The position numbers and the translations under genes were made by a program. The notes beneath the pieces were generated by a model, which had not been told where the DNA came from, did not search any database, and saw nothing but the letters and a program-made list of their open reading frames with translations. From the NCBI GenBank assembly GCA_021779415.1, contig JAJYAS010000006.1, positions 1-18,138 of the forward strand: a stretch of 18,138 nt of DNA. Direction: 5' to 3'. The DNA is from Bacillota bacterium (GTDB lineage Bacteria; Bacillota_B; Desulfitobacteriia; Desulfitobacteriales; Desulfitobacteriaceae). Below, piece by piece: positions 3,292 to 18,138 of the stretch; within the stretch, counting starts at the first letter, position 1; every line of letters begins with the position of its first letter.

Positions 3292-3302
3292 GGTGTAACA
3301 CC
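3292..3302. repeat. short palindrome GGTGT-A-ACACC upstream of the YVTN gene
   Basis: A perfect 5-bp inverted repeat with a 1-base centre lies 80 bases before the YVTN-protein start, in a 143-bp gap that otherwise shows no clear promoter or terminator. It might be an operator half; the length is too small to be sure. Confidence 0.25.
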
Positions 3303-3382
3303 CTTCATGAACCTTGAATAATATACGATGAAACTATGGTTAATATATGCCTCTACCTATCTAAGAAGGAGGGAATACACGA

Positions 3383-4936
3383 ATGTTATTTGAAAACCAC
3401 GCCTGGGTAACACTCGACAATGCCGTCGCTATATATAATGTTTACAGCGATGTGCTAGTCGCTACCATTCCCGTGGGGATTGCTCCTGCTTTCCCAAAAC
3501 GCACACCGGATGGTACAAAAGTTTTAGTCCCTAATTTCGGTAGTAACACCGTCTCCGTCATTTGCACCGCGGCAAATAAAGTCTTGGCAACTATCCCGGT
3601 GGGCCTCGCACCTACTTCAGTAGTGATTGACCCGACCAGTACAACTGCCTACGTGACAAACTCTGGAAGCGGAACTGTTTCAATCATTAGCATCCCTACC
3701 GAATCCGTCGTAGGGACGATCTCTGTTGGCACCGGGCCTGTCGATGTCACAATTTCCCGTGACGGTAGCCGTGTATATGTCAGCAATGGTGGTAGCGATA
3801 CCGTCTCTGTCATCAATCCTATCACGAATTCTGTCATCACTTCGATCCCTGTGGGTACTGCACCCAATGGCCTGGTCGTTAGCTTGGATAATACTAAGCT
3901 CTTTGTTGTCAACAGTGGCAGCAACAATGTCAGTGTCATTAATACCGCCACCAATGCTATTTTAAGCCTAATCGCAGTCGGCTCGAACCCGCAAAAAATT
4001 GCAGCAAACCCTGCAAATCCTGTCTTTATGTATGTGACTAACTTTGGGTCAAACAGTGTTAGTGTACTCTCGACAACCGGGCTTAACCTCATAGCGACCG
4101 TTCCTGTTGGTATAAATCCCCGTGGCCTAGATGTTACCGGCGATGGCACACAAGTATGGGTTGCTAACGAAGGGGACAGCTCAATCAGTATCATTAACAC
4201 AAGCACGAATACCATTGCTGCTGCACTACCGACTTCATTCCCGCCTCGAGGTGTTACAGTCGGCCGAGTCGGCTCCCCTCTATCGCCTGGTGAACCCATC
4301 GATTTGCTTGACCCTTATCAACTGGAAGAAATAACAGAATCCGTTTGCATCATCGTAGAAAAAGTTTATGCTAGCTGTCAACAAAGGGAATGCTTCCCGG
4401 CTTTCACCGTCACTTTGCCAACTGGTGTTCCTCCGTTTACCTTTATCAGCATGACCTTCGCCAACGGTTTGATTGTTCCCGGAAGTGTCGTTATTACACC
4501 CATTCCAGCCCGCCCAAATTTCTCGAGAGTTCAGTTCACGATTGAAATCCCCTACACGTTGACCCTGCGTGATTCTACCGGAACCTTGTTTACCCTCACG
4601 GGTAACCTACCTGATATTAACAAAGACATCGTGCTCTACTTCCCACCAACTCGACCGGAGTTTGACTTTAACTTGCGCATTGAAACAAGAACAGAGGTAT
4701 TAACAAGCCCGCTGTTCACGGTTGCCACGATTCAACTGGCCATCGGAAGCTTTGTTATTACTAAAGTAACTGGTGTCGTTCAACTCCTCGTTCCAGCTTT
4801 CGGGTTCTGCCCAGAACCTCCGACCTGTGAAGAGTTCCCAGTGATACCGCAAAATCCATGTCTCAATTTCTTCGACACTACACTCACCCCATTCCCGAGT
4901 GATTTCTTCCCGCCACAACTGGATACTTGCCAGTAA
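3383..4936 (+). CDS. seven-bladed YVTN beta-propeller protein with Cys-rich C-terminal domain
   Basis: The 517-residue protein begins directly with propeller blades. Repeats of the YVTN type recur about every 42 residues: NFGSNTVSV (51-59), NSGSGTVSI (93-101), NGGSDTVSV (135-143), NSGSNNVSV (177-185), NFGSNSVSV (220-228), NEGDSSISI (262-270), and a divergent first copy near 8-20. That makes seven blades over about 1-295. Residues 300-517 form a separate beta-rich domain with seven Cys (322, 332, 337, 476, 482, 493, 516) opening with VCIIVEKVYASC, a style I associate with Firmicute spore-related proteins, though I cannot name the family. There is no signal peptide, which argues for a cytoplasmic or mother-cell-made spore layer protein. 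The RBS is AAGGAGGG at 3366-3373. The gene stands alone, with a terminator after it. Confidence 0.85.
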   Translation: MLFENHAWVTLDNAVAIYNVYSDVLVATIPVGIAPAFPKRTPDGTKVLVPNFGSNTVSVICTAANKVLATIPVGLAPTSVVIDPTSTTAYVTNSGSGTVSIISIPTESVVGTISVGTGPVDVTISRDGSRVYVSNGGSDTVSVINPITNSVITSIPVGTAPNGLVVSLDNTKLFVVNSGSNNVSVINTATNAILSLIAVGSNPQKIAANPANPVFMYVTNFGSNSVSVLSTTGLNLIATVPVGINPRGLDVTGDGTQVWVANEGDSSISIINTSTNTIAAALPTSFPPRGVTVGRVGSPLSPGEPIDLLDPYQLEEITESVCIIVEKVYASCQQRECFPAFTVTLPTGVPPFTFISMTFANGLIVPGSVVITPIPARPNFSRVQFTIEIPYTLTLRDSTGTLFTLTGNLPDINKDIVLYFPPTRPEFDFNLRIETRTEVLTSPLFTVATIQLAIGSFVITKVTGVVQLLVPAFGFCPEPPTCEEFPVIPQNPCLNFFDTTLTPFPSDFFPPQLDTCQ

Positions 4937-5021: not shown

Positions 5022-5080
5022 GCCAGTCAGAAAGTATAAGTTTTTATCCACAGGTCGGATCACTAATGCTCATGAAAATA

Positions 5081-5089
5081 AAGGAAGTG
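5081..5089 (+). promoter_or_regulatory. ribosome binding site that fixes a TTG start
   Basis: AAGGAAGTG stands 6 bases before TTG at 5096. The in-frame ATGs at 5066 and 5072 have no such site upstream, so translation of the coiled-coil protein most likely begins at the TTG. Confidence 0.65.
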
Positions 5090-5095
5090 ATCGTA

Positions 5096-6979
5096 TTGGC
5101 TTACCTAAGTCGAACCACTATTACTCCCCTTCTCCTAACCTATGAAAATAAATCCATGTACCTACACGTCGATCCTCAAGGATGTGCTCTTTTTGGTGTT
5201 GAGAGCCCGGAACCCTCCTATCGGGTCCAAGAACCGCTACTTCTTGCTCATGGAATCATGACCGATGCTAAAACGGTCCATCTCGTCGTCCTAAAAACAA
5301 GCGGAGAGCTTTGTTACACTCTAATTTCCGGATCTTCGACACCCCAGACAACGCTCATTGCTAAATTGGACGTCCGTGCCACAAGATATCGTCGCCTCTT
5401 TCTCTTTCCCCAAGGTAAGATCATACATATCTTTTACGCCTCTACACATCAAGCCATTCCAAATGTCTGGCATATTGAACATCGCCTCTGGAATGGCGTT
5501 TCTTGGCTCAGTACTCGCATGGGGGAAGTTGTTCACCCACGGGAACCCCTTTATCACGTTAACCTAGATAGTCAGGGAAACCTACATTTTTTAACCATCA
5601 CCTTTCAGGGGCGGCATTCTCTCTTGTTTACGAACCGCTTTAATGGAACGTTTAACATTTGGGGGTCTCCAACAGAAACGCTGAAAATTTCAGGCGAAGT
5701 CGTAGATATTGCCGCACTCATGACGTCGGATAATGTCCACCATCTCTATTGGGTAACTAAGGCTCCCAATGGGCGATTTGAACTACGCACTGCGCAACAG
5801 ATCGACGCCCATGAACTATCCAGCTCCTGGCATCCATCTCATGCCCCTATCAAAACCTTCAACTCCCCTTGGAAAAGCATGGGTGCCTTGGAGATCAACG
5901 GGGTTCTTTGGCTACTAGCCCGCACTGGGGAAGAAGTCCTCATGCTTAATGATGGTAAAGGATGGAAATTCGTCTCCTCTCATCCTACCTTCCATCAGCC
6001 CTTACAATGGGTGCATAAAGGCAAGAGGAATTTTCATCAAACCTACTGGCTGGAAGATCAAGTTGAGAGGCACTCTCCGGCTTATCACCACGAATTAGGC
6101 TTCACCCTTAAAAACCAGTCCGCTCCTTTGCCCCAACCCTTCCAACCTGTTCCTACCCAAACAATTCCCCCTGTACCTGCCTTCTATCCCGAACTATTAT
6201 CACCGAATAGTGATCCTCTCCCGCCAATCGTGGTGAATATAAGCCCTACCAACCAAACGAATATTCCTGTTCCAATTTCTGAGGAAATATCAAGTCCTCA
6301 ATTAACAATTGACGCAACAATTGAAGGACTCGAGGTATCTGAAGTATCCGAAAACCCAACTGAGGAAGTCCTTCTGCCCCAACCTTTGCAAGAAAACATT
6401 GAACTCGAACGGCTAGTCTCAACCGTTGCCCATCTTGAGGAGGAAAACGCCGAACTCCAACGTTTGGTCTCGACCGTCTCCCATCTCGAGGAGGAAAACG
6501 CCGAACTCCAACGTTTAGTCTCGACCGTTTCCCATCTCGAGGAAGAAAATGCTGAACTCCAACGTTTAGTTTCGACCGTTTCCCATCTCGAGGAAGAAAA
6601 TGCTGAACTCCAACGTTTAGTTTCGACCGTTTCCCATCTCGAGGAAGAAAATGCCAACATGAGTCTTGTCCTTCACAATACGCTTTCTAAATTTGACCAA
6701 ATATTGGAGACCATATCCGAAAATGCTTTTCAGGCCAAACAAGAAGTAGCTCTCCCTATTGCTGAAATCCCTTTTGATGAACTTGAACCAGTCAAGGAAG
6801 CCATGTCTAATCTTGAAAAGGAAACTGAAAGTCTGTCCCAAGTCCTTCGGGTTATGCTAGTCAAACAGGAGGAAAGCGACTCCTCTCTTGAAAAGCTGGA
6901 GACACAATTATCTCAACTTCAAACGGAAAAAGAGGTCGTTAAGAATAAAGGAGGTTTTTGGAACAAATGGATCACCTAG
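5096..6979 (+). CDS. propeller-like protein with repeat-built coiled-coil tail
   Basis: The 627-residue protein has no signal peptide or membrane segment. Residues 1 to about 335 are rich in Trp, His and beta-strand patterns, with recurring segments such as LWNGVSW, FNGTFNIWG and DGKGWKF, which suggests a propeller of the sialidase/BNR or lectin kind; the family is not recognised. A Pro/Thr-rich linker covers about 342-388. Residues 436-520 are five tandem 17-residue units (ELQRLVSTVSHLEEENA type) that should form a coiled coil, followed by more heptad-like helix and a basic, aromatic end (GGFWNKWIT). The start is TTG 5096 on the basis of its RBS. It overlaps the following DUF1858-like gene by 13 bases. 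A structural or spacer role on the spore or cell surface is inferred from architecture and neighbours only. Confidence 0.75.
   Translation: MAYLSRTTITPLLLTYENKSMYLHVDPQGCALFGVESPEPSYRVQEPLLLAHGIMTDAKTVHLVVLKTSGELCYTLISGSSTPQTTLIAKLDVRATRYRRLFLFPQGKIIHIFYASTHQAIPNVWHIEHRLWNGVSWLSTRMGEVVHPREPLYHVNLDSQGNLHFLTITFQGRHSLLFTNRFNGTFNIWGSPTETLKISGEVVDIAALMTSDNVHHLYWVTKAPNGRFELRTAQQIDAHELSSSWHPSHAPIKTFNSPWKSMGALEINGVLWLLARTGEEVLMLNDGKGWKFVSSHPTFHQPLQWVHKGKRNFHQTYWLEDQVERHSPAYHHELGFTLKNQSAPLPQPFQPVPTQTIPPVPAFYPELLSPNSDPLPPIVVNISPTNQTNIPVPISEEISSPQLTIDATIEGLEVSEVSENPTEEVLLPQPLQENIELERLVSTVAHLEEENAELQRLVSTVSHLEEENAELQRLVSTVSHLEEENAELQRLVSTVSHLEEENAELQRLVSTVSHLEEENANMSLVLHNTLSKFDQILETISENAFQAKQEVALPIAEIPFDELEPVKEAMSNLEKETESLSQVLRVMLVKQEESDSSLEKLETQLSQLQTEKEVVKNKGGFWNKWIT
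6401..6655 (+). repeat. five tandem 51-bp repeats inside the coiled-coil gene
   Basis: Units lie at 6401-6451, 6452-6502, 6503-6553, 6554-6604 and 6605-6655. The last two differ only in their final base, and divergence grows toward the first unit. The period of 17 codons keeps frame. The reverse strand gives a spurious long open frame here. The array is a likely site of copy-number variation between strains. Confidence 0.95.
6947..6955 (+). promoter_or_regulatory. strong ribosome binding site for the DUF1858-like gene
   Basis: AAAGGAGGT is a near-perfect Shine-Dalgarno sequence 11 bases before ATG 6967, placed inside the end of the previous gene. If the TGA at 7066 were a plain stop, this strong site would serve a product of only 33 residues. 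Confidence 0.8.
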
Positions 6980-7197
6980 ATTTAAATTCAAATCTCGCCG
7001 CAATTCTATCCAAGTATCCTCAAACTGCCACTACCTTCCGAAAATTCGGCATTCTCACATCTGGTTGAGGGGCCAAAAGCTTACTCAATATGAGCGTTGA
7101 GCAGGCTGCTCAACGATACCACATTAACCCTGCAACCCTCATTAAATCCTTGGAGGTTGCTATTGACCAATCTAACCATCAATGGAGACACTTCTAA
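6967..7197 (+). CDS. DUF1858-like redox protein, candidate selenoprotein (in-frame TGA at codon 34)
   Basis: From ATG 6967 the frame is open for 33 codons, meets TGA at 7066-7068, then stays open for 42 more codons to TAA 7195-7197. Both halves together (76 residues) fit the DUF1858 / hybrid-cluster-protein-associated redox domain: a helix with KYPQTATTFRKFGI at 16-29, the redox motif, then SVEQAAQRYHI at 43-53 and NPATLIKSL. Family members usually have G-I-x-C-x-G-C; here it is GILTSG followed by the TGA codon, so TGA takes the place of the second Cys and Thr31 takes the first, giving a TxxU motif. A hairpin with SECIS-like geometry follows (7095-7115). The gene is tightly packed: a 13-base overlap upstream, and the stop abuts the next ATG (TAAATG). 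The alternative is a recent nonsense mutation of a Cys codon, or a 33-residue product. I favour selenocysteine insertion, without proof. Confidence 0.65.
7095..7115 (+). promoter_or_regulatory. candidate bacterial SECIS hairpin
   Basis: CGTTGAGCA (7095-7103), loop GGC (7104-7106) and TGCTCAACG (7107-7115) form a perfect 9-bp stem with a 3-base loop whose first two bases are G. The loop begins 35 bases after the TGA at 7066-7068. As I recall the published bacterial SECIS consensus (short apical loop of at least 3 bases, G in the first two loop positions, about 16-37 bases from UGA), it fits, near the far end of the distance range. No T-run follows, so it is not a terminator. Confidence 0.6.
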
Positions 7198-8148
7198 ATG
7201 AACGTTCTTTTTTTAAATGATTCCTCCCTATTGAGCCTTGGATTGGCTTCAGGTTTTTCCCCACTAGATGACATCCGTTATCTTCCCGTTCGCTTACCGG
7301 ACTGGGAAAACCGTTTGACAGACATGTTGAGGAACTGGAAACCAGATTTCGCTTTTGCAGAGGGGGTTTCAATTTCAACGGTTGCCCAGAAGCTCTTTCC
7401 CTTGTTACGCCGTCATTCCCTTCCGCTCATCTATTGGGCAATCGATGATCCCCCAGACTGGACCCGCATGTCCCGTCCTTTGGGCCGGGGGGCCAAACTA
7501 GTTCTTACCCCGGCTCAAGAATGTCTACCCCGATATCAGCGCGAAAAAATACGTGCGCTTTATTTCCATTTCGCTTGTAATCCATCCTTTCATCACCCGA
7601 CAGAACCCTCGATCAAGTATACTTGCGATTTACTTCTTGTTGCTAATTACTATACTTCCTATCCTCAAAGGAAATTCGGATTAGAAATAGTCCTGACTCC
7701 GTTACGTTCAGTGCCATTTCAAATTAAAGTTTTTGGTAACGAACACTGGCTTGCCAACACAGACCTATACACCTTACCACCCGATATTTACCAAGGCTAT
7801 TTACCCTATGAACAGCTACCCTGCGCCTATTCCTCAGCTAAAATCGTTTTAGGCTTACATTCCGTAATAGACTCTCCCACCATGATGAGCATGCGCACCT
7901 TCGAAGCCTTGGGTTGTGGGGCCTTTTTTTTGACACATTGGTCCCAAGGCATTGAAAATCTCTTCAAAAATCACGTCCATCTCGTCTGGAGCCGCCATCC
8001 GGATGAGACCTTAGAGCTCGTGCGTTTTTACCTGAAACGTGAAGATCTCCGTCAAAAAATTGCCCGTCAAGGTCAAGAGGAAGTGTACCGTAACCATACC
8101 TATCAGCATCGCATCCAGTCCGTTCGGGCACATCTAGAAAAATTATAA
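7198..8148 (+). CDS. CgeB-family glycosyltransferase
   Basis: The 316-residue protein resembles CgeB/DUF3880-type proteins with a C-terminal glycosyl transferases group 1 domain (PF13524). In B. subtilis CgeB is linked to spore surface maturation. Seen here are the N-terminal Rossmann start MNVLFLND, the family hallmark YWAIDDP at 79-85, LTPAQECLPRY at 103-113, VFGN at 178-181, and the donor-domain segment SMRTFEALGCGAFFLT at 231-246. There is no signal peptide or membrane segment, so it acts in the cytoplasm. Its ATG abuts the stop of the DUF1858-like gene, so the two are probably translationally coupled. It would transfer a sugar to a surface protein or glycan; the substrate is unknown. Confidence 0.82.
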   Translation: MNVLFLNDSSLLSLGLASGFSPLDDIRYLPVRLPDWENRLTDMLRNWKPDFAFAEGVSISTVAQKLFPLLRRHSLPLIYWAIDDPPDWTRMSRPLGRGAKLVLTPAQECLPRYQREKIRALYFHFACNPSFHHPTEPSIKYTCDLLLVANYYTSYPQRKFGLEIVLTPLRSVPFQIKVFGNEHWLANTDLYTLPPDIYQGYLPYEQLPCAYSSAKIVLGLHSVIDSPTMMSMRTFEALGCGAFFLTHWSQGIENLFKNHVHLVWSRHPDETLELVRFYLKREDLRQKIARQGQEEVYRNHTYQHRIQSVRAHLEKL

Positions 8149-8238: not shown

Positions 8239-9234
8239 ATGAAAGTACTTTTCCAAGCTCGCCCTGACTTCATGAAAAACCCCGCTGGAGATACCGTCCA
8301 AATGGTTTCGACCGGACAAGAGCTTAAAAAACTCGGCGTTGAAGTGCATTTATCCGCTGATCCCAATATTGATCTATCTCCCTATGACGTTGTTCACATT
8401 TTCAATATTACCAGAATCAAAGAAAGCTATATGTTCTTTCTCAATGCCCAAAAGCAAAAGAAGAAGACCGTCCTATCCCCTATTTATTGGCCTCCTAATG
8501 CTTATTTCAAGCGTGAAGGGGCAAGCTCCAATGCTCTAGCTGTCTGGAAGCATATGCAGCCGATGCGGGCCCGCCTAGTTAGTGAATCGACTCTCTTGCT
8601 CCCCAATAGCCATTTGGAGATGAGCGTTCTACAGAACGACTTTCCTCAAGTCTCTTCTTATCGCGTTGTTCCCAATGGGTTTCCCGATTCCTTTATTGGG
8701 GCGAGCCCTCAGCTCTTTCGGGAACAGTTCCCTAATCTTCCAGACGAATTTGTGCTTTGTGCTGCCCGAATTTCAACACGCAAGAATCAGAATTGGTTGG
8801 CAAAAATATCACACGAACTCGGACTTTCGCTTGTTCTTATTGGACCTGTAAATGACCAAAAGTATTTCCAGAGTGTAACTTCCTATTCTAACGTCAGCTA
8901 TCTTGGTACTTTACAGGGCGAACTGCTCGCTTCTGCTTATTCTGCTGCAAAAGCTCATGCCCTGCCTAGTTGGTTTGAAACTCCAGGCTTATCCAGCATA
9001 GAAGCAGGTGCGTGCGGTACCGTTGTCATCTCTACGGACCAAGGAAGCCCTAAAGAATATTTCCAGGACATGGCCCTTTATGTGCACCCCCTAAATGATA
9101 CGAGCTTACGTATTGCCCTTGAACAATCCTTTAATGCCTCTCCCCTTCCCTTAATGCAGCATATACACAATCAGTATTCCTGGTCTAAAGTTGGAGAAAT
9201 GACCTTAGAAACTTATAAGACAGTACTGGATTAA
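8239..9234 (+). CDS. GT4-family (GT-B fold) glycosyltransferase
   Basis: The 331-residue protein has the layout of retaining GT4 enzymes: an N-terminal acceptor domain starting MKVLFQARPD, a VPNGF linker at 144-148, a donor domain with AARISTRKNQ (R177, K182) for nucleotide-sugar phosphate binding, and the EX7E motif E247...E255 in WFETPGLSSIEAGACG. It is soluble and cytoplasmic. GGGGAGGAG at 8223-8231 supports the ATG at 8239. It follows the CgeB-like gene after 90 bases and converges on the DUF6385-type gene. A role in building the glycan of the nearby surface proteins is inferred from position only. Confidence 0.88.
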   Translation: MKVLFQARPDFMKNPAGDTVQMVSTGQELKKLGVEVHLSADPNIDLSPYDVVHIFNITRIKESYMFFLNAQKQKKKTVLSPIYWPPNAYFKREGASSNALAVWKHMQPMRARLVSESTLLLPNSHLEMSVLQNDFPQVSSYRVVPNGFPDSFIGASPQLFREQFPNLPDEFVLCAARISTRKNQNWLAKISHELGLSLVLIGPVNDQKYFQSVTSYSNVSYLGTLQGELLASAYSAAKAHALPSWFETPGLSSIEAGACGTVVISTDQGSPKEYFQDMALYVHPLNDTSLRIALEQSFNASPLPLMQHIHNQYSWSKVGEMTLETYKTVLD

Positions 9235-9339: not shown

Positions 9340-10059
9340 CTACAATTCTCCCTGGAAGAAAATATTCAGAGTGACCGCACTCGCCGCATTTACGGCGCTA
9401 TAATATACGCGCGCATACTTTAGAAATATCGAAGTGACTAAAGTCGTCAATGAGTTCTGGTTAATTGTAACTGGGCCAGCCTCGTCTAACCAGTTTGTCC
9501 CATCTGGGCTAATCTGCATTTTTACTAGGGCCTGGGCATTCGCATTTAATGAATCATTTACTACGCCAAAGGTCCATTCCCGAACCCCTAAAACGGTATA
9601 AGTTGTATCTCCGCTCCCTGCAGTATCTGTTATATTTGCAAGAATTGCAGATACATCTGTCGTCGCGCTAATAATAGAAAGTCCTGCTGATGTGATCAGC
9701 AAGCCGCTCGTCGGCGGAGTGATTGCCAAACCACCGGTTGGAGGGGTGATCGCTAGGCCTTCTGCCGGTGCTGTTACCGTCAAGCCATTCGTCGGCGCCG
9801 TGATTGCCAGACCCGTTGACGTAATCGCTAAACCATTCGTCGGCGGAGTGATCGCCATACCACCGGTTGGGGGGGTAATCGCTAGGCCTTCTGCCGGTGC
9901 TGTTACCGTCAAACCATTCACCGGTGCAGTGATTGCCAAACCTGTCGACGTAATTGTCAGGTTACCCGAGGAATCCGTGTTTAAGGCTGCATTATTACCT
10001 CCGAATATCTTGACTTTTGCCTGATCAGGATTGTCTTGAAAAATCTTAAAGTTAGCCAT
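9340..10059 (-). CDS. DUF6385-type protein with beta-repeat middle region
   Basis: The 239-residue protein has three parts. Residues 1-34 (MANFKIFQDNPDQAKVKIFG) contain the KIFG...N...T..G segment also seen in the two larger paralogs. Residues about 35-129 are 9-residue units such as GLAITPPTG and GLTVTAPAE, rich in Thr and Pro, likely to form an extended beta or solenoid rod. Residues 150-239 are the DUF6385-type C-terminal domain with VKMQISPDGTNW at 179-190 and the end FFQGEL. There is no signal peptide. I start it at ATG 10059, not at the ATG 33 bases further out, because the product then begins with a typical family N-terminus and GAGAGG lies upstream. The repeats hold many Thr residues that could take glycans from the adjacent transferases. 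The function of DUF6385 is unknown; spore surface localisation is inference. Confidence 0.8.
   Translation of the reverse strand: MANFKIFQDNPDQAKVKIFGGNNAALNTDSSGNLTITSTGLAITAPVNGLTVTAPAEGLAITPPTGGMAITPPTNGLAITSTGLAITAPTNGLTVTAPAEGLAITPPTGGLAITPPTSGLLITSAGLSIISATTDVSAILANITDTAGSGDTTYTVLGVREWTFGVVNDSLNANAQALVKMQISPDGTNWLDEAGPVTINQNSLTTLVTSIFLKYARVYYSAVNAASAVTLNIFFQGEL
9701..9958 (-). repeat. two tandem 129-bp repeats (each 4 x 27 + 21 bp)
   Basis: Copy one is 9701-9829 and copy two 9830-9958, offset by exactly 129 bases with high identity. Each encodes 43 residues made of four 9-residue units and one 7-residue unit. The pattern shows two levels of duplication, small units first and then the block. 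It stays in frame and may vary in copy number. Confidence 0.9.
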
Positions 10060-12188: not shown

Positions 12189-13932
12189 CCTCACCATGAT
12201 TGTAAGAAATGAATCCGCTCATTTAGTTAATTGCCTCGAAAGCGTTAAAAATAAAGTCGAAGAAATGATCATCGTTGATACCGGCTCAACCGATGATACC
12301 GTCAGCATTGCACAGCGTTATACCCCCAATGTTTATACCTTTCCTTGGCACAACGATTTTAGTGCAGCCCGAAACTTTGCCATTAAACGCGCTTCGGGCG
12401 ATTGGATCTTGGCCCTGGATGCCGACGAGGAAGTCCAGTGCCAAGATCAGAACTGTTTCCATTCATTACTAAATAGAGGAGAAGACAAAGAAGCCTTCTT
12501 GCTCCCTCTTCTTAATCCCATTTCAGATTCAACTGAAGAATTTAATACATTTTATGTACTCAGGTTGTTCAGAAACGACGGGCGCTATCAATACGTCGGC
12601 AAAATTCATGAACAAATCTCTCTACCGGATCAACAAAAAGTCGGACTTGCCACAGGCCCTATCTTAATGCATAAATCTCTGCCCCTCAAGATAAGGCACC
12701 AAAAAAGAAACCGCAATCTCCAACTGCTGAAAAAAGCCTCTCAAGAGGACCCTCACAATCCATTTTTGCACTATTACCTTGGCGTGGAGTGGCTCATGCT
12801 TGGTAAATCAGCTTATGCCCAACCTTTCTTGCAAAAAGCCTATTCCAGTCTAAGCGATGATAACCTGCTTTTTCGTGCACCTGCTTTAAAATATCTCCTC
12901 GTGTCCTTAAGAGCGTTAGGTCGAATCGATGAGGCTCTCTCACTCTGTCTTGAAGCAAGTCTGCAATATCCAAACTTTACAGATATCTTTTATCTGGGTG
13001 GGCTCCTCCTCGAAGAAAAGGAAGAATACCCTATTGCCCTGAAGTGGTTCAAGCATGCCATTAATTGCGGCAAACCCCCGGCATTGCTCAGCCATATGAC
13101 AGGGTCAGGAAGTTTCTTAGCCTATTATCACCTGGGCTTTTGTTATGAAAAAACGAGAAAAAATTCCGAGGCCAGAGGAGCTTATGAAACGGCACTTGAA
13201 CTTAACCCAAGGTATCATTACCCCCTTTACCCTCTCTTTTTGAACCTGCTTAATGAAAAGGGCCCTTCTCTCTGTTATCACCACCTAGAGGATCAAGGCT
13301 TCCTTGCCAATCCCCTTCTCTGCCTCGCCTCTGCAGATTTATTTTTTCTCTCGGATCGTGTGGAGCAAGCCTATCTCTGTTTAGCGACCCATAAAGACGA
13401 TTTCCTCGATGATGAACGCTTTCCTTTCTATTACGGGAAATATTGTATTTATTCTGGTAGGGCACACGCCGGGTTAGAATCTTTAAACCAGATTACACCG
13501 AACAGTCTCTATTACCCATCTGCCCAAGCACTTTCGCTTGTTGCGCTATCCCTGCTCGGTAATTTTCTAAGAGCTAAATCCTTAGCGCTCACACTATGGA
13601 AAAATCAATCAACCCGGTGTGAAGCGCATGTTTTCTTATGGTTAATCCAATTTATGAAGAAGGATTCAATTCCGCCATATCACTACAAACTGCAGGAAAA
13701 AGAAACCTTAACCTTTACTACTGAACTGTTTCTGAACTGTAAGCGTTATCGATTTCATGAGAGGTATAACGACCCCCTAGTTGAAACCTGGAGCAAGGGC
13801 CTTGAAGCTCTTTTAAAATCCTCGGAAAAGGGTCTCCAGCAACTGCTAGATGACTACGACCAACGTGTTCAGGACCTTAACCACCAACTCGTTGCTAAGT
13901 TTGGGATTGGTTGGATAAGCAATGAATACTAA
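12172..13932 (+). CDS. GT2 glycosyltransferase with TPR-like tail (second of three)
   Basis: The 586-residue paralog of the previous gene opens MNERISLTMIVRNE. It shows VDTGST (35-40), NDFSAARN (61-68), LDADEE (82-87), and the later RLFRN...GKIHEQ region. The tail is helical with TPR-like units such as AYYHLGFCYEKTRKNSEARGAYETALELNP. It is soluble, with no signal peptide. It overlaps the gene before by 17 bases and the gene after by 11, so the three are almost certainly one transcript with coupled translation. It probably adds another sugar, or works on another acceptor, in the same process. Confidence 0.87.
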   Translation: MNERISLTMIVRNESAHLVNCLESVKNKVEEMIIVDTGSTDDTVSIAQRYTPNVYTFPWHNDFSAARNFAIKRASGDWILALDADEEVQCQDQNCFHSLLNRGEDKEAFLLPLLNPISDSTEEFNTFYVLRLFRNDGRYQYVGKIHEQISLPDQQKVGLATGPILMHKSLPLKIRHQKRNRNLQLLKKASQEDPHNPFLHYYLGVEWLMLGKSAYAQPFLQKAYSSLSDDNLLFRAPALKYLLVSLRALGRIDEALSLCLEASLQYPNFTDIFYLGGLLLEEKEEYPIALKWFKHAINCGKPPALLSHMTGSGSFLAYYHLGFCYEKTRKNSEARGAYETALELNPRYHYPLYPLFLNLLNEKGPSLCYHHLEDQGFLANPLLCLASADLFFLSDRVEQAYLCLATHKDDFLDDERFPFYYGKYCIYSGRAHAGLESLNQITPNSLYYPSAQALSLVALSLLGNFLRAKSLALTLWKNQSTRCEAHVFLWLIQFMKKDSIPPYHYKLQEKETLTFTTELFLNCKRYRFHERYNDPLVETWSKGLEALLKSSEKGLQQLLDDYDQRVQDLNHQLVAKFGIGWISNEY

Positions 13933-15145
13933 ACAGACTGTCAGCTTATGTATGATCGTTAAAGATGAAGAAGACTGCCTTCTCGCTGCGATCCAGAGCG
14001 TTCGAAATATAACAGATGAACTAATTGTGATCGATACGGGAAGTACGGATAGTACTCCCCAATTGGCTCTTGCCTCGGGCGCAAAATTGTTTTACTTCGC
14101 TTGGACAAAGGATTTCTCGGAGGCCAGAAACTTTGCCCTAAAACAAGCCTCCTCTGATTGGATCTTAGTCCTGGATGCAGACGAAGTTCTTGAATCCGTT
14201 AGCCGAGAAGCCTTCAACGAGCTCTTAAACAATGTCGAGATTGAAGGGTATTTTCTCCGTATTAAAAATGCCCTTGACTCGAACCTAGGTGAGTCCAGCG
14301 ATCAAGTTGTGCGTTTATTTCGGAATAAACCAGTTTATCAGTTTGAGGGAGCCATCCATGAACAAGTAGCCCCTTGTATCCTTCGAGCGAATAACGGCAA
14401 AGGTTTATCCCTTGCCCCTCTCACCCTCAATCACTATGGTTACCTTAAAGATCGTTTGCAATCTAAAGACAAATTTTCCCGAAACAGTGGAATTATCCAT
14501 AAAGAACTCGTTAGAGATCCGAACAATCCTTTCCTCCTCCACTGCCTCGGGATTGAATATTATCAACAAAACTCTATTGCCGTGGGGCTAAAGTACCTTA
14601 CAAAGGCCCTAGTTCACATGTCTGGTAACGAGGGTTACTTTAAAGATGTTCTCCTCAATATTTCGCTTGGCTATCTCCGTCTTAAAGAAACCACAAAATT
14701 GATCGACTTCATAAGTAAGGCTCTAAGTATGTACCCAGACCAAACGGATTTCCTTTTTCTTAGGGGAACCGCTTACCTCTACCAAGCGAACTACCGCGAA
14801 GCGGCTGTGGACTTCAACCATTTCCTTGAGATTACTGAGAGTAAAACGAGTGCATCCAATTCTGATAACACAAAGAGCGTTGCCCATAATTTCTTGACAC
14901 TCACACTAAAAGAAATCCATCTATGTTGTTTAGTCATAGAACATCCAGACATGCAAACAGTTCATTTCAACACCAAGGATAAACTATCTATTGCTTTGAA
15001 GGAGGCCCTCCTCATTCTTTGTAACGCCTTACTCAGCAATTCTAGAGAAAATGGGTTACCTTTGAAAGGAGTTGATGATTATGAAACCTCGTGTTCTCCT
15101 TGCCCTTCGAAGAGTATGCTCCAAAACAACTGCGAGAATTATTAG
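13922..15145 (+). CDS. GT2 glycosyltransferase with short TPR-like tail (third of three)
   Basis: The 407-residue third paralog has MIVKDEE (11-17), VIDTGSTD (36-43), DFSEARN (64-70), LDADEV (84-89), and RLFRN...EGAIHEQ. The TPR-like tail is much shorter than in its two neighbours (ending near residue 380). The last 25 residues or so (from GVDDYETSC on) are encoded by the same bases as the next gene's ribosome binding site and first codons, and look unlike the rest of the protein. Either the tail has been eroded or the genes overlap by 65 bases. The start ATG 13922 has only a weak GGAT upstream and probably depends on coupling to the previous gene, whose stop it overlaps. Confidence 0.82.
   Translation: MNTKQTVSLCMIVKDEEDCLLAAIQSVRNITDELIVIDTGSTDSTPQLALASGAKLFYFAWTKDFSEARNFALKQASSDWILVLDADEVLESVSREAFNELLNNVEIEGYFLRIKNALDSNLGESSDQVVRLFRNKPVYQFEGAIHEQVAPCILRANNGKGLSLAPLTLNHYGYLKDRLQSKDKFSRNSGIIHKELVRDPNNPFLLHCLGIEYYQQNSIAVGLKYLTKALVHMSGNEGYFKDVLLNISLGYLRLKETTKLIDFISKALSMYPDQTDFLFLRGTAYLYQANYREAAVDFNHFLEITESKTSASNSDNTKSVAHNFLTLTLKEIHLCCLVIEHPDMQTVHFNTKDKLSIALKEALLILCNALLSNSRENGLPLKGVDDYETSCSPCPSKSMLQNNCENY
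15063..15070 (+). promoter_or_regulatory. ribosome binding site pointing to ATG 15081
   Basis: GAAAGGAG (TGAAAGGAG context) is 10 bases before ATG 15081. That ATG is in a different frame from the well-coding open frame that begins near 15091, which is the basis for suspecting a frameshift. Confidence 0.7.
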
Positions 15146-15821: not shown

Positions 15822-16784
15822 TTATCTCTGAGCCTGAAACCAAACCTGGAGGGGATTGGAAATTCCGGAACGGTAAATTAAGCGAACATAACGGAGAAAA
15901 TGATTGGGATTGATTACCTTAATTACTCCCGGCAATATCTCATGTTCCAAATCGTCCTCTGTCCAAATTGCACCATCCGGGCTAATTTGCAGTTGAACTA
16001 AGACGCCTACCGAACCGATATTGTGCACTGCATAAGAGTATACGCATACCTCAGATACATCTTTAGGCATGGTTGCAGCATAAACGTCCGAAGCAATTAT
16101 GGTCTCTGAACTTTGCACATACTTTCTTCCAGACACCATAACTTGAACCAAACCATCTGGCGTTGATGTTACAGGATTTCCATTACTTCCATAAATTTTC
16201 AGACCATCCGTAGCCGGTGTCAAAGCCCGTAAATCAGCTTTTATGGGTGTTTGAATTTTTCCTATAGAGTCGATATGACGAACGTATAGTTGTCCCTTCT
16301 CATCCAGTCGTAAAGCTTGCTTTGGGTAGAGCCTACATGCCTGAATTTCGCGGACTAAAATTATTCCCTCACCGAAGATCCCAACCTCAATTCTAATTCC
16401 TGTCACTCCTGCGGGAGTGGCAACAATCCGAGTGAATACTTCTGGCTCTGAGCCAGGTCGTACGGAAAACAAATCTTGACTCACTGCACCAAGATATACT
16501 CGAATATAGCAAGGAATCTCCGCCGGTTCAGTTTGAAGAACAACTCGAATTTCCCATCTCTGCCCTTCTCCGGCAGGAATCACAACATTATTTTCTAGAG
16601 TGATCCCGGCTCTCGGTCCCGATGGATGAATGATCCTGATTGCTCTTGGACCTTCTGGGATGCCAACCCACTCCCACATTGTTGCGGTATCTCCGCCTGT
16701 TTGAACCCATCCGTCCGGAAAATTCGGATTACTTTCTTGCGATAAACGGAAATGACTATTATAGACTTGATTTGTTTCAGTCAT
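15822..16784 (-). CDS. DUF6385-type protein with N-terminal jelly-roll-like domain
   Basis: The 320-residue protein has an N-terminal domain at about 8-155 (NSHFRL...DGWVQTGGDTATMWEW...RAGITL) that looks like a carbohydrate-binding beta-sandwich and is shared with the next gene. A linker with HIDSIGKIQTPI follows at 170-181, then LKIYGSNGNPVTST at 195-208. The C-terminal DUF6385-type domain has VQLQISPDGAIW at 263-274 and ends VWFQAQR. There is no signal peptide and no membrane segment. AGGTGGGG and GGCGGA precede ATG 16784. It lies 91 bases after its paralog, in the same direction. A surface role, probably on the spore, is inferred from the family and its glycosylation neighbours. Confidence 0.8.
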   Translation of the reverse strand: MTETNQVYNSHFRLSQESNPNFPDGWVQTGGDTATMWEWVGIPEGPRAIRIIHPSGPRAGITLENNVVIPAGEGQRWEIRVVLQTEPAEIPCYIRVYLGAVSQDLFSVRPGSEPEVFTRIVATPAGVTGIRIEVGIFGEGIILVREIQACRLYPKQALRLDEKGQLYVRHIDSIGKIQTPIKADLRALTPATDGLKIYGSNGNPVTSTPDGLVQVMVSGRKYVQSSETIIASDVYAATMPKDVSEVCVYSYAVHNIGSVGVLVQLQISPDGAIWTEDDLEHEILPGVIKVINPNHFLRYVRLIYRSGISNPLQVWFQAQR

Positions 16785-16875: not shown

Positions 16876-17931
16876 TCAACTTTGAGCCTGAACCCATATT
16901 CTTAAAGTTGTTAAACCCTCTGCCCCATAGGCTAGCCTTGTATAACGCAAAAAAATTCCAGAGGGGATAATGACTAATTTTCCAGGACCAACCTCACGCT
17001 GAGATCCCTCTACCACCCAATGGACACCGTCCGGACTAAGTTCTGCTTGCACAAAGGCGCGATAGGTTCCGAAATTATAGACTGCAAACGAAAAGCGAGG
17101 CAACCCTGAAACATCGCGAGTTGTTGTCGAAGCTAAGGTCTGATTCGCGGTAACCTCTTCGAGGCTTTCGTTAAACCCGTGTCCGCTAATTTCCACTTGC
17201 GCTCGACCGCTATTTGAGGTGGCTAAGGGAACAGGACTACTGCCGAAAATTTGGACTCTGTCTCGCGTTGGTGTCAGGTTACGTACATTAGCATCGACCG
17301 TGGCTTGGACGGTTACCGGCACCCTTAGAGGAATGGGCATGGCAAGCTGAATCGGCTTAGTTATTTCTCCAATCGACTGAATATGATTTATTTGACGGAG
17401 CTCATTAGAAACCTTCTTTGCTCGCCTTCTCATGTAATTAGGTAGAATAGGATAAGCAATCAATTGGTATATGCCTAAACTGCCTGGTCCTACAATTCCC
17501 GTTTCTATGCGCATGAACCTAATATCTGAACCACCACTAATGACTTGCTTAAACTTTTCCAACTTCTGCTCGGGACTAAAGCTATATGTCCAAGGCTTAC
17601 ACACATCACCCTTTGACTTCATGGGATAGCAGCGCAAATAAGCCTTGCTTTCTGGTTTTTCACTTTTGAGAAGAATAATTACCAGCCAGTCTTCATCTTG
17701 TCCAAGGTCAAGAGAAGCTTCGTGCGTTTGGATAATTCCTGCTCTAATATCAGCCGAATGACGAATCTCTAAGACAGGTCTTTCCATAGGGTCCTGCCTA
17801 AACTCCCATCTCGTGGTGTGATTGCCACCGATTTTGAGCCACTCATCCGGAAGATCCGTGGCCTCCCCACTTCTTTTTAGGAAATCGCCATTATGTATTC
17901 CACTGAACGTCCCCTTTAGATTTCTCCTCAT
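16876..17931 (-). CDS. DUF6385-type protein, paralog of the preceding one
   Basis: The 351-residue protein parallels its downstream neighbour: an N-terminal domain with NGDFLKR, DEWLKIGGNHTTRWEF (29-44) and RAGI (63-66), a linker HIQSIGEITKPI (183-194), VQIFGSSPVPLATS (226-239), and a C-terminal domain with VQAELSPDGVHW (294-305) and the end IWVQAQS. A basic patch MRRRAKK at 167-173 is specific to it. The start is set at ATG 17931, because GGAGGG (complement of 17939-17944) is 7 bases away; the ATG 18 bases further out has no such site. There is no signal peptide. It is probably the first gene of a leftward transcript with its paralog. Confidence 0.8.
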   Translation of the reverse strand: MRRNLKGTFSGIHNGDFLKRSGEATDLPDEWLKIGGNHTTRWEFRQDPMERPVLEIRHSADIRAGIIQTHEASLDLGQDEDWLVIILLKSEKPESKAYLRCYPMKSKGDVCKPWTYSFSPEQKLEKFKQVISGGSDIRFMRIETGIVGPGSLGIYQLIAYPILPNYMRRRAKKVSNELRQINHIQSIGEITKPIQLAMPIPLRVPVTVQATVDANVRNLTPTRDRVQIFGSSPVPLATSNSGRAQVEISGHGFNESLEEVTANQTLASTTTRDVSGLPRFSFAVYNFGTYRAFVQAELSPDGVHWVVEGSQREVGPGKLVIIPSGIFLRYTRLAYGAEGLTTLRIWVQAQS

Positions 17932-18138
17932 CTTAAAACCCTCCACCATCAGACGATTGAGAAAGCACTATTCACCTAATCCTATCGATCAAATCATAAA
18001 AATAGCACTAAACAACAGACTTTGACCTAAGAAACTTAAACCTCCTGCAATTAATTTTTAATTTAACAAAAACTGGGCATTGAATCTCTACGTAATTCGT
18101 GCTAAATTTATGTTGTACAAGATATCTAGAGAAACTAA
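17932..18138. other. AT-rich gap at the right edge
   Basis: I see no convincing gene in this stretch. It should carry the promoter for the leftward DUF6385-type pair, but no well-spaced promoter stood out. An AGGAGG on the minus strand (complement of 18041-18046) has no start codon at a usable distance. Confidence 0.5.

Follow-up and report, generated by a model that had tools for sequence, protein, structure and literature searches.

The locus and its reading frame

The window (the whole stretch of 18,138 nucleotides that was analysed) carries a small gene with one in-frame UGA, placed between the genes of a coiled-coil protein and a glycosyltransferase; the features of the locus are collected in Table 1. 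In the preliminary description this gene was proposed to encode a selenoprotein, interrupted only by the TGA, overlapping the preceding gene by 13 bases and ending directly at the next one. The reading of the open frames agreed with these details: the TGA at 7066-7068 is the single interruption of the frame 6967-7197, the ORF before it stops at 6979, and the TAA at 7195-7197 abuts the ORF starting at 7198. The same description inferred an intact 76-residue gene with a strong ribosome binding site. The intactness was supported by the conservation of TGA or Cys at the codon and by the dN/dS values given below, but the spacing of the binding site was less favourable, as 12 nt, a long distance, separate AAGGAGG from the ATG. 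Despite this spacing the ATG is the likely start, because in six of the 26 closest loci (L028, L032, L036, L039, L041 and L044) an in-frame TAA stands immediately 5' of it.

Table 1. Features at the locus of the putative selenoprotein gene, in window positions
Feature	Position	Strand	Remarks
Promoter-like block AACACC, 13 nt, GAATAATATACG	3297..3327	+	before the YVTN gene; in 17/17 aligned loci
YVTN beta-propeller protein	3383..4936	+	six conserved Cys in its C-terminal Cys-rich beta domain
Coiled-coil protein	5066..6979	+	shares 13 bases with the putative selenoprotein gene and precedes it in 25/25 longer loci; N-terminal part unassigned
Putative lone-Sec DUF1858-like selenoprotein gene	6967..7197	+	76 residues, ATG to TAA
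In-frame UGA, predicted Sec 34	7066..7068	+	TGA in 31/36 orthologous genomes, Cys in 5
Short hairpin CTCA-ATA-TGAG	7084..7094	+	directly upstream of the main hairpin
Predicted SECIS hairpin	7095..7115	+	9-bp stem 7095-7103/7107-7115, loop GGC 7104-7106
Glycosyltransferase (PF13524)	7198..8148	+	starts at the stop of the putative selenoprotein gene; in 20/25 longer loci
Family 4-type glycosyltransferase	8239..9234	+	in 24/25 longer loci

Domain family and predicted fold

When the TGA was taken as a residue, the 76 amino acids matched Pfam DUF1858 (PF08984) over residues 5-59 with an E value of 6e-7 and 29.9 bits, against a curated cut-off of 32.2, and this accords with the earlier view that both sides of the TGA form one DUF1858-type domain. 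The PF08984 label is also precomputed on nine of the 15 relatives of the protein in the databases. The best NCBIfam match was TIGR03980 (31.3 bits, cut-off 44.95), the product being devoid of CxxC, and no model of NCBIfam release 20 covers a DUF1858-like form with a lone selenocysteine (Sec). Aligned by profile to 2k5e, a DUF1858 structure (search score 5e-5), the product has residue 34, encoded by the TGA, at the second Cys of the CxxC motif and residue 31, a Thr, at the first one.

The structural model of the protein, built with 21 aligned relatives, had a pLDDT of 85 and a pTM of 0.68. Its top two Foldseek matches were the DUF1858 solution structures 2k53 and 2k5e (TM 0.73 and 0.76) at weak E values of 0.03-0.06, and the next one was the N-terminal domain of YtfE (5fny_B, TM 0.68); every match had an E value above 0.001, namely 0.03 and above. 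According to the model the product is a small helical protein of the DUF1858/ScdA_N fold, in which one predicted Sec takes the position of the second CxxC Cys.

Orthologs and the residue at codon 34

Among 45 genomes of the family to which the window belongs 38 gave a match, and 36 of these belong to the same subfamily; the remaining two (G032 and G038) are weak, with 38-39% identity, that of G032 being a CxxC paralog (L062). TGA is found at exactly codon 34 in 31 of the 36 genomes and Cys in five (G018-G021 and G045). The identity is 68-86% in 26 of the 31 TGA genomes and 43-55% in the other five. Together with the window gene these make up the 32 TGA genes referred to below. A first genome scan had given 16 loci, 15 of them from Desulfosporosinus with TGA at codon 34 in all 15, and the sixteenth (L016, Cuspidothrix) was dropped since its match spans just 20 residues. 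Thus the close genomes, where homologs with Cys or TGA at this position had been suggested as a check, contain both forms, and the random lesions that would have spoken against the gene are absent from the codon.

The protein databases held 15 relatives: 13 have Cys at the site, one has Trp (P0003) and one is a piece of 36 residues from the downstream half (P0015), so Cys is present in 13 of the 14 that cover the position. P0003 comes from a contig of 532 bases, and its Trp codon is perhaps a genuine TGG, perhaps a TGA that was translated with another table.

The residue three positions before the Sec codon proved to be variable. In the 32 TGA genes it is Thr in 22, Val in six, and Ser, Pro, Ile and Cys (L047) in one each; the five Cys genes have Val or Phe there. 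Accordingly, the T-S-G-U or TxxU motif of the preliminary description cannot be kept as a motif: the TGA does replace the second Cys of CxxC, and Thr is right for the window, but it is not fixed in the family. As judged from the aligned sequences, the hallmark of the subfamily is rather one lone Sec or Cys without the partner Cys of DUF1858.

Ten of the 15 database proteins were included in a tree of 51 rows, which was built from few columns and left many forks open (left out were P0003, P0004, whose sequence is identical to L051, P0012, P0014 and P0015). In this tree the Cys forms P0001 and P0002 are nested among the Sec forms of Desulfosporosinus, and the CxxC paralogs make up a clade of their own with 100/100 support. 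The Sec label takes five changes on the tree, of which the well-supported branches force just one. In a wider search, 37 other genomes of the class gave a single weak match, with TAG (G063), and 398 genomes of the phylum at E 1e-13 gave six matches only, all of them known family members. Viral contigs, plasmids and phages were all searched and contained no relative, and a viral or plasmid origin was rejected.

Selection on the two halves of the gene

The median dN/dS of 27 close genes is 0.148 before the TGA and 0.147 after it, calculated only from pairs with dS above 0.15 (262 and 273 usable pairs, respectively, of 351). Purifying selection is thus equally strong on either side of the TGA. 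In the same 27 genes the downstream half contains neither a frameshift nor a further stop, so homologs without a conserved downstream half, named earlier as a refuting case, were not encountered. Given these values and the conserved TGA or Cys at the codon, a pseudogene or a chance lesion was rejected. A change of the genetic code was also rejected: TGA serves as the gene's own terminal stop in ten of the 32 TGA genes, and the code is therefore unchanged.

A candidate SECIS hairpin

The stem of the main hairpin starts 26 nt past the TGA, and its loop, beginning with GG, lies 35 nt past it. A hairpin with GG in the loop was recognized in all 32 TGA genes, with seven to nine of the nine pairs kept and AGG at the loop edge, and in none of the five Cys genes, where four to six of the nine pairs are formed and AGG is missing. 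The mean hairpin energy of the TGA genes is -10.2 kcal/mol, compared with -3.2 for synonymous shuffles that preserve the protein, and per gene 2 to 44 of 500 shuffles reached the observed energy; the window hairpin alone has a z-score of -4.1. The Cys genes lack this signal (-1.6 vs -1.5 after shuffling) although their protein segment is similar to that of the TGA genes. Furthermore, synonymous divergence is reduced over codons 35-50, where it amounts to 0.21 and the rest of the gene gives 0.43 (one-sided p 4e-4); it is zero at codons 40, 41, 46 and 47.

Covariation was not found for the hairpin, its pairs being near invariant (one two-sided change vs 1.0 by shuffling), and for this reason the case is built on the synonymous conservation and on the absence of the hairpin from the Cys genes. 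The RNAalifold consensus favours another, weak structure, which pairs the UGA itself with the 3' arm. Rfam at gathering thresholds returned nothing in the window, hence no match to a SECIS family. PMC1088965 places bacterial SECIS elements just downstream of the UGA, with a small apical loop containing guanosine, and a conserved G in the SECIS loop is mentioned in PMC1794560; a stem-loop of the kind set out in PMC1088965 follows the UGA in each of the 32 TGA genes. A further comparison is offered by SelD, which in these bacteria contains Sec: its genes in two relatives display the same layout, with one hairpin after another at a similar distance from the TGA; SelD is, however, an unrelated protein, and its hairpin loop is GUU, not GGY as in the gene described here. 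Based on these sequence comparisons, a SECIS-like RNA element tied to the TGA is predicted.

Selenocysteine machinery of the relatives

The lack of sel genes had been named as a further refuting case, and the relatives do possess them. In the 31 TGA genomes selA is over the cut-off in 29 (not in G007 and G040), selB is present in 30 (not in G030) and selD in all 31, while a tRNA-Sec of at least 60 bits occurs in 28 (not in G002, G034 and G035); 25 genomes have all four components and the other six have three of them. At the first scan of relatives selB had been present in 15 of 15. The threshold of 60 bits was set above the Rfam cut-off of 47, because matches of 46-50 bits, which are probably tRNA-Ser, appear in nearly every genome, including those without selA or selB. 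As for the Cys genomes, G018-G020 have all four components, G021 is without selD, and G045, a small genome, is without all four.

Three genomes (G008, G012 and G028) each carry two selA and two selB over the cut-off and two strong tRNA-Sec. One of the sets lies close together, with the higher-scoring selA, and the duplicate is perhaps a second, acquired Sec system.

The surrounding gene cluster

Synteny was counted in those 25 of the 36 genomes which have longer loci. Besides the neighbours in Table 1, the YVTN/Cys-rich gene is present in 24 (in L001 it is cut by the contig end) and a glycosyltransferase further upstream in 22. The abutting glycosyltransferase is missing from four Desulfitobacterium-like loci, so labelled after the database proteins that group with them (P0011), and from G045, and the second downstream glycosyltransferase from G045 only. 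Judged by this gene order, the putative selenoprotein gene occupies a conserved location in many related sulfate reducers. The preliminary description had assigned it to a surface-glycosylation operon; glycosylation is supported by at least three glycosyltransferase-like neighbours, with the surface as its possible target.

In 14 aligned sequences of the Cys-rich domain of the YVTN protein (window 4325-4933) four Cys are invariant and two nearly so. The domain gave no Pfam family and no fold match, its model being poor (pLDDT 62). In the Desulfitobacterium-like loci only this C-terminal domain is left of the YVTN gene; a beta-propeller thus precedes the domain in some loci and is missing from others.

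L002-L015, L082, L083, L085 and the window have the block AACACC-13 nt-GAATA..ATAC in common upstream of the YVTN gene, and it may resemble the promoters of sporulation (mother-cell) sigma factors. The two genomes searched each contain the exact pattern a single time, which does not show a regulon. A terminator-like inverted repeat, seen in the alignment between the YVTN and coiled-coil genes, suggests that the putative selenoprotein is probably on a transcript separate from that of the YVTN gene; concerning the promoter of this transcript the alignment was uninformative.

Decoding of the UGA and possible function

Taken together, the TGA/Cys orthologs, the dN/dS values, the hairpin distribution (32/32 vs 0/5) and the sel genes of the relatives support the proposal of a selenoprotein. 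We give a probability of roughly 0.9 to an intact gene for a small lone-Sec selenoprotein; decoding of its UGA as Sec, for which the computational evidence is strong, appears very likely. SelB and Sec-tRNA decode UGA codons of this kind. The ribosome would read the UGA at 7066-7068 as Sec, directed by the hairpin and served by the SelA/SelB/SelD/tRNA-Sec machinery of the Desulfitobacteriaceae relatives. The lone selenol might then react with a partner protein or a small thiol to give a transient mixed bond. Such a one-selenol (monothiol-like) redox action is suggested by the loss of the partner Cys and by the lone Cys that relatives have at the site; it is the most likely role of the protein, to which we would give even odds. 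The partner could tentatively be sought among the members of this putative surface or spore-coat assembly and glycosylation cluster, since the gene has a fixed place between the coiled-coil protein and the glycosyltransferases, one gene away from the Cys-rich protein.

Instead of taking part in thiol-disulfide exchange, the Sec might be a metal ligand or act in iron-sulfur or nitrosative repair, functions attributed to the ScdA_N domain of YtfE/ScdA. The weak profile and fold similarity to ScdA/YtfE is in line with this, but the residue is alone, a second conserved ligand is missing from the aligned family and no di-iron domain is fused or adjacent, and we regard the possibility as unlikely. 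Rather improbable is a selenium switch, where the UGA and its hairpin would also couple translation of the glycosyltransferase to the selenium supply, as ribosomes halting at the UGA would never get to the abutting start. In 31 of the 32 TGA genes the stop and the following start are indeed no more than 4 nt apart in either direction (-4 to +4); the tight spacing (+1), however, is found in four of the five Cys genes as well, so it is not tied to Sec. The combined possibility, that formation of the spore or cell surface in Desulfitobacteriaceae includes a selenium-dependent step, in which the lone-Sec protein acts on the Cys-rich protein of the cluster and the UGA-hairpin gates the glycosyltransferase, so that surface glycosylation would track selenium, is more speculative again.

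Sec is strongly preferred over the remaining readings of the codon. Hairpins past stops can stimulate read-through, and a suppressor or near-cognate tRNA might insert another amino acid, for example the Trp seen in P0003, with the hairpin as a stimulator. This is very improbable, since the exchange partner is Cys and not Trp in all five genomes and in the database proteins (13 of 14), the sel machinery co-occurs with the gene, and TGA terminates some of the very same genes. The least credible reading is that the UGA is a true stop after a peptide of 33 residues, the rest being dead or a leader for the glycosyltransferase; the standard code and the gene-calling databases, which list mostly Cys forms and the one downstream piece, would permit it, but the strong purifying selection on an unbroken downstream half and the TGA/Cys exchange at one codon contradict it.

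Relation to known selenoproteins

DUF1858 domain-containing selenoproteins with CxxU are tabulated in PMC9312934 and PMC13188914, with WP_012065717.1 as an example. Table 1 of PMC13188914 treats differing Sec motifs as separate subfamilies and contains no lone-Sec or TxxU DUF1858 entry. Among the open-licence papers listed for selenoproteins of DUF1858, Desulfosporosinus or Desulfitobacterium no report of the lone-Sec form came up. The earlier remark that the form was not known to have been described therefore holds for the lone-Sec subfamily, as far as these tables go, and not for DUF1858 selenoproteins as such: judged by sequence and gene order, the novelty is at the level of a subfamily of lone-Sec, synteny-locked DUF1858 selenoproteins.

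The tabulated CxxU form shares with it the DUF1858 domain and the Sec at the second Cys of CxxC. Compared by the tabulated motif, that form keeps the first Cys, whereas 31 of the 32 genes described here have Thr, Val, Ser, Pro or Ile in its place; unlike that form, the lone-Sec gene sits in a conserved glycosyltransferase cluster. The hybrid cluster protein-associated redox disulfide domain (TIGR03980) and the CxxC paralogs of the same bacteria (L061-L064) have the fold and the domain family in common with it, but it scores below the TIGR03980 cut-off and the paralogs are a separate clade. The ScdA_N domain of the iron-sulfur repair proteins ScdA and YtfE has a similar small helical fold; the lone-Sec protein differs in having no di-iron domain and one Sec or Cys aligned to the CCGG of ScdA_N.

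The gene would add a selenoprotein subfamily in which the Sec lacks a resolving partner. Since Sec and Cys versions exist naturally at the same syntenic place, with an exchange even within one genus, the question why Sec is used and not Cys becomes testable in a protein of 76 residues. If the role in the cluster is true, selenium would be linked to glycosylated surface or spore layers. It should be added that ordinary gene callers miss the gene, the full-length database proteins being Cys (or Trp) forms, accompanied by one fragment.

Other features of the window

The upstream coiled-coil gene contains near-identical tandem repeats of heptads at 6460-6660. Three DUF6385 proteins are encoded on the minus strand (9340-10059, 15822-16784 and 16876-17949) among GT2-TPR glycosyltransferase genes, and the first of them carries repeated glycine-rich segments. 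The GT2-TPR protein at 13922-15145 distantly resembles the model of the S-glycosyltransferase SunS, scoring 75 bits against a cut-off of 350.
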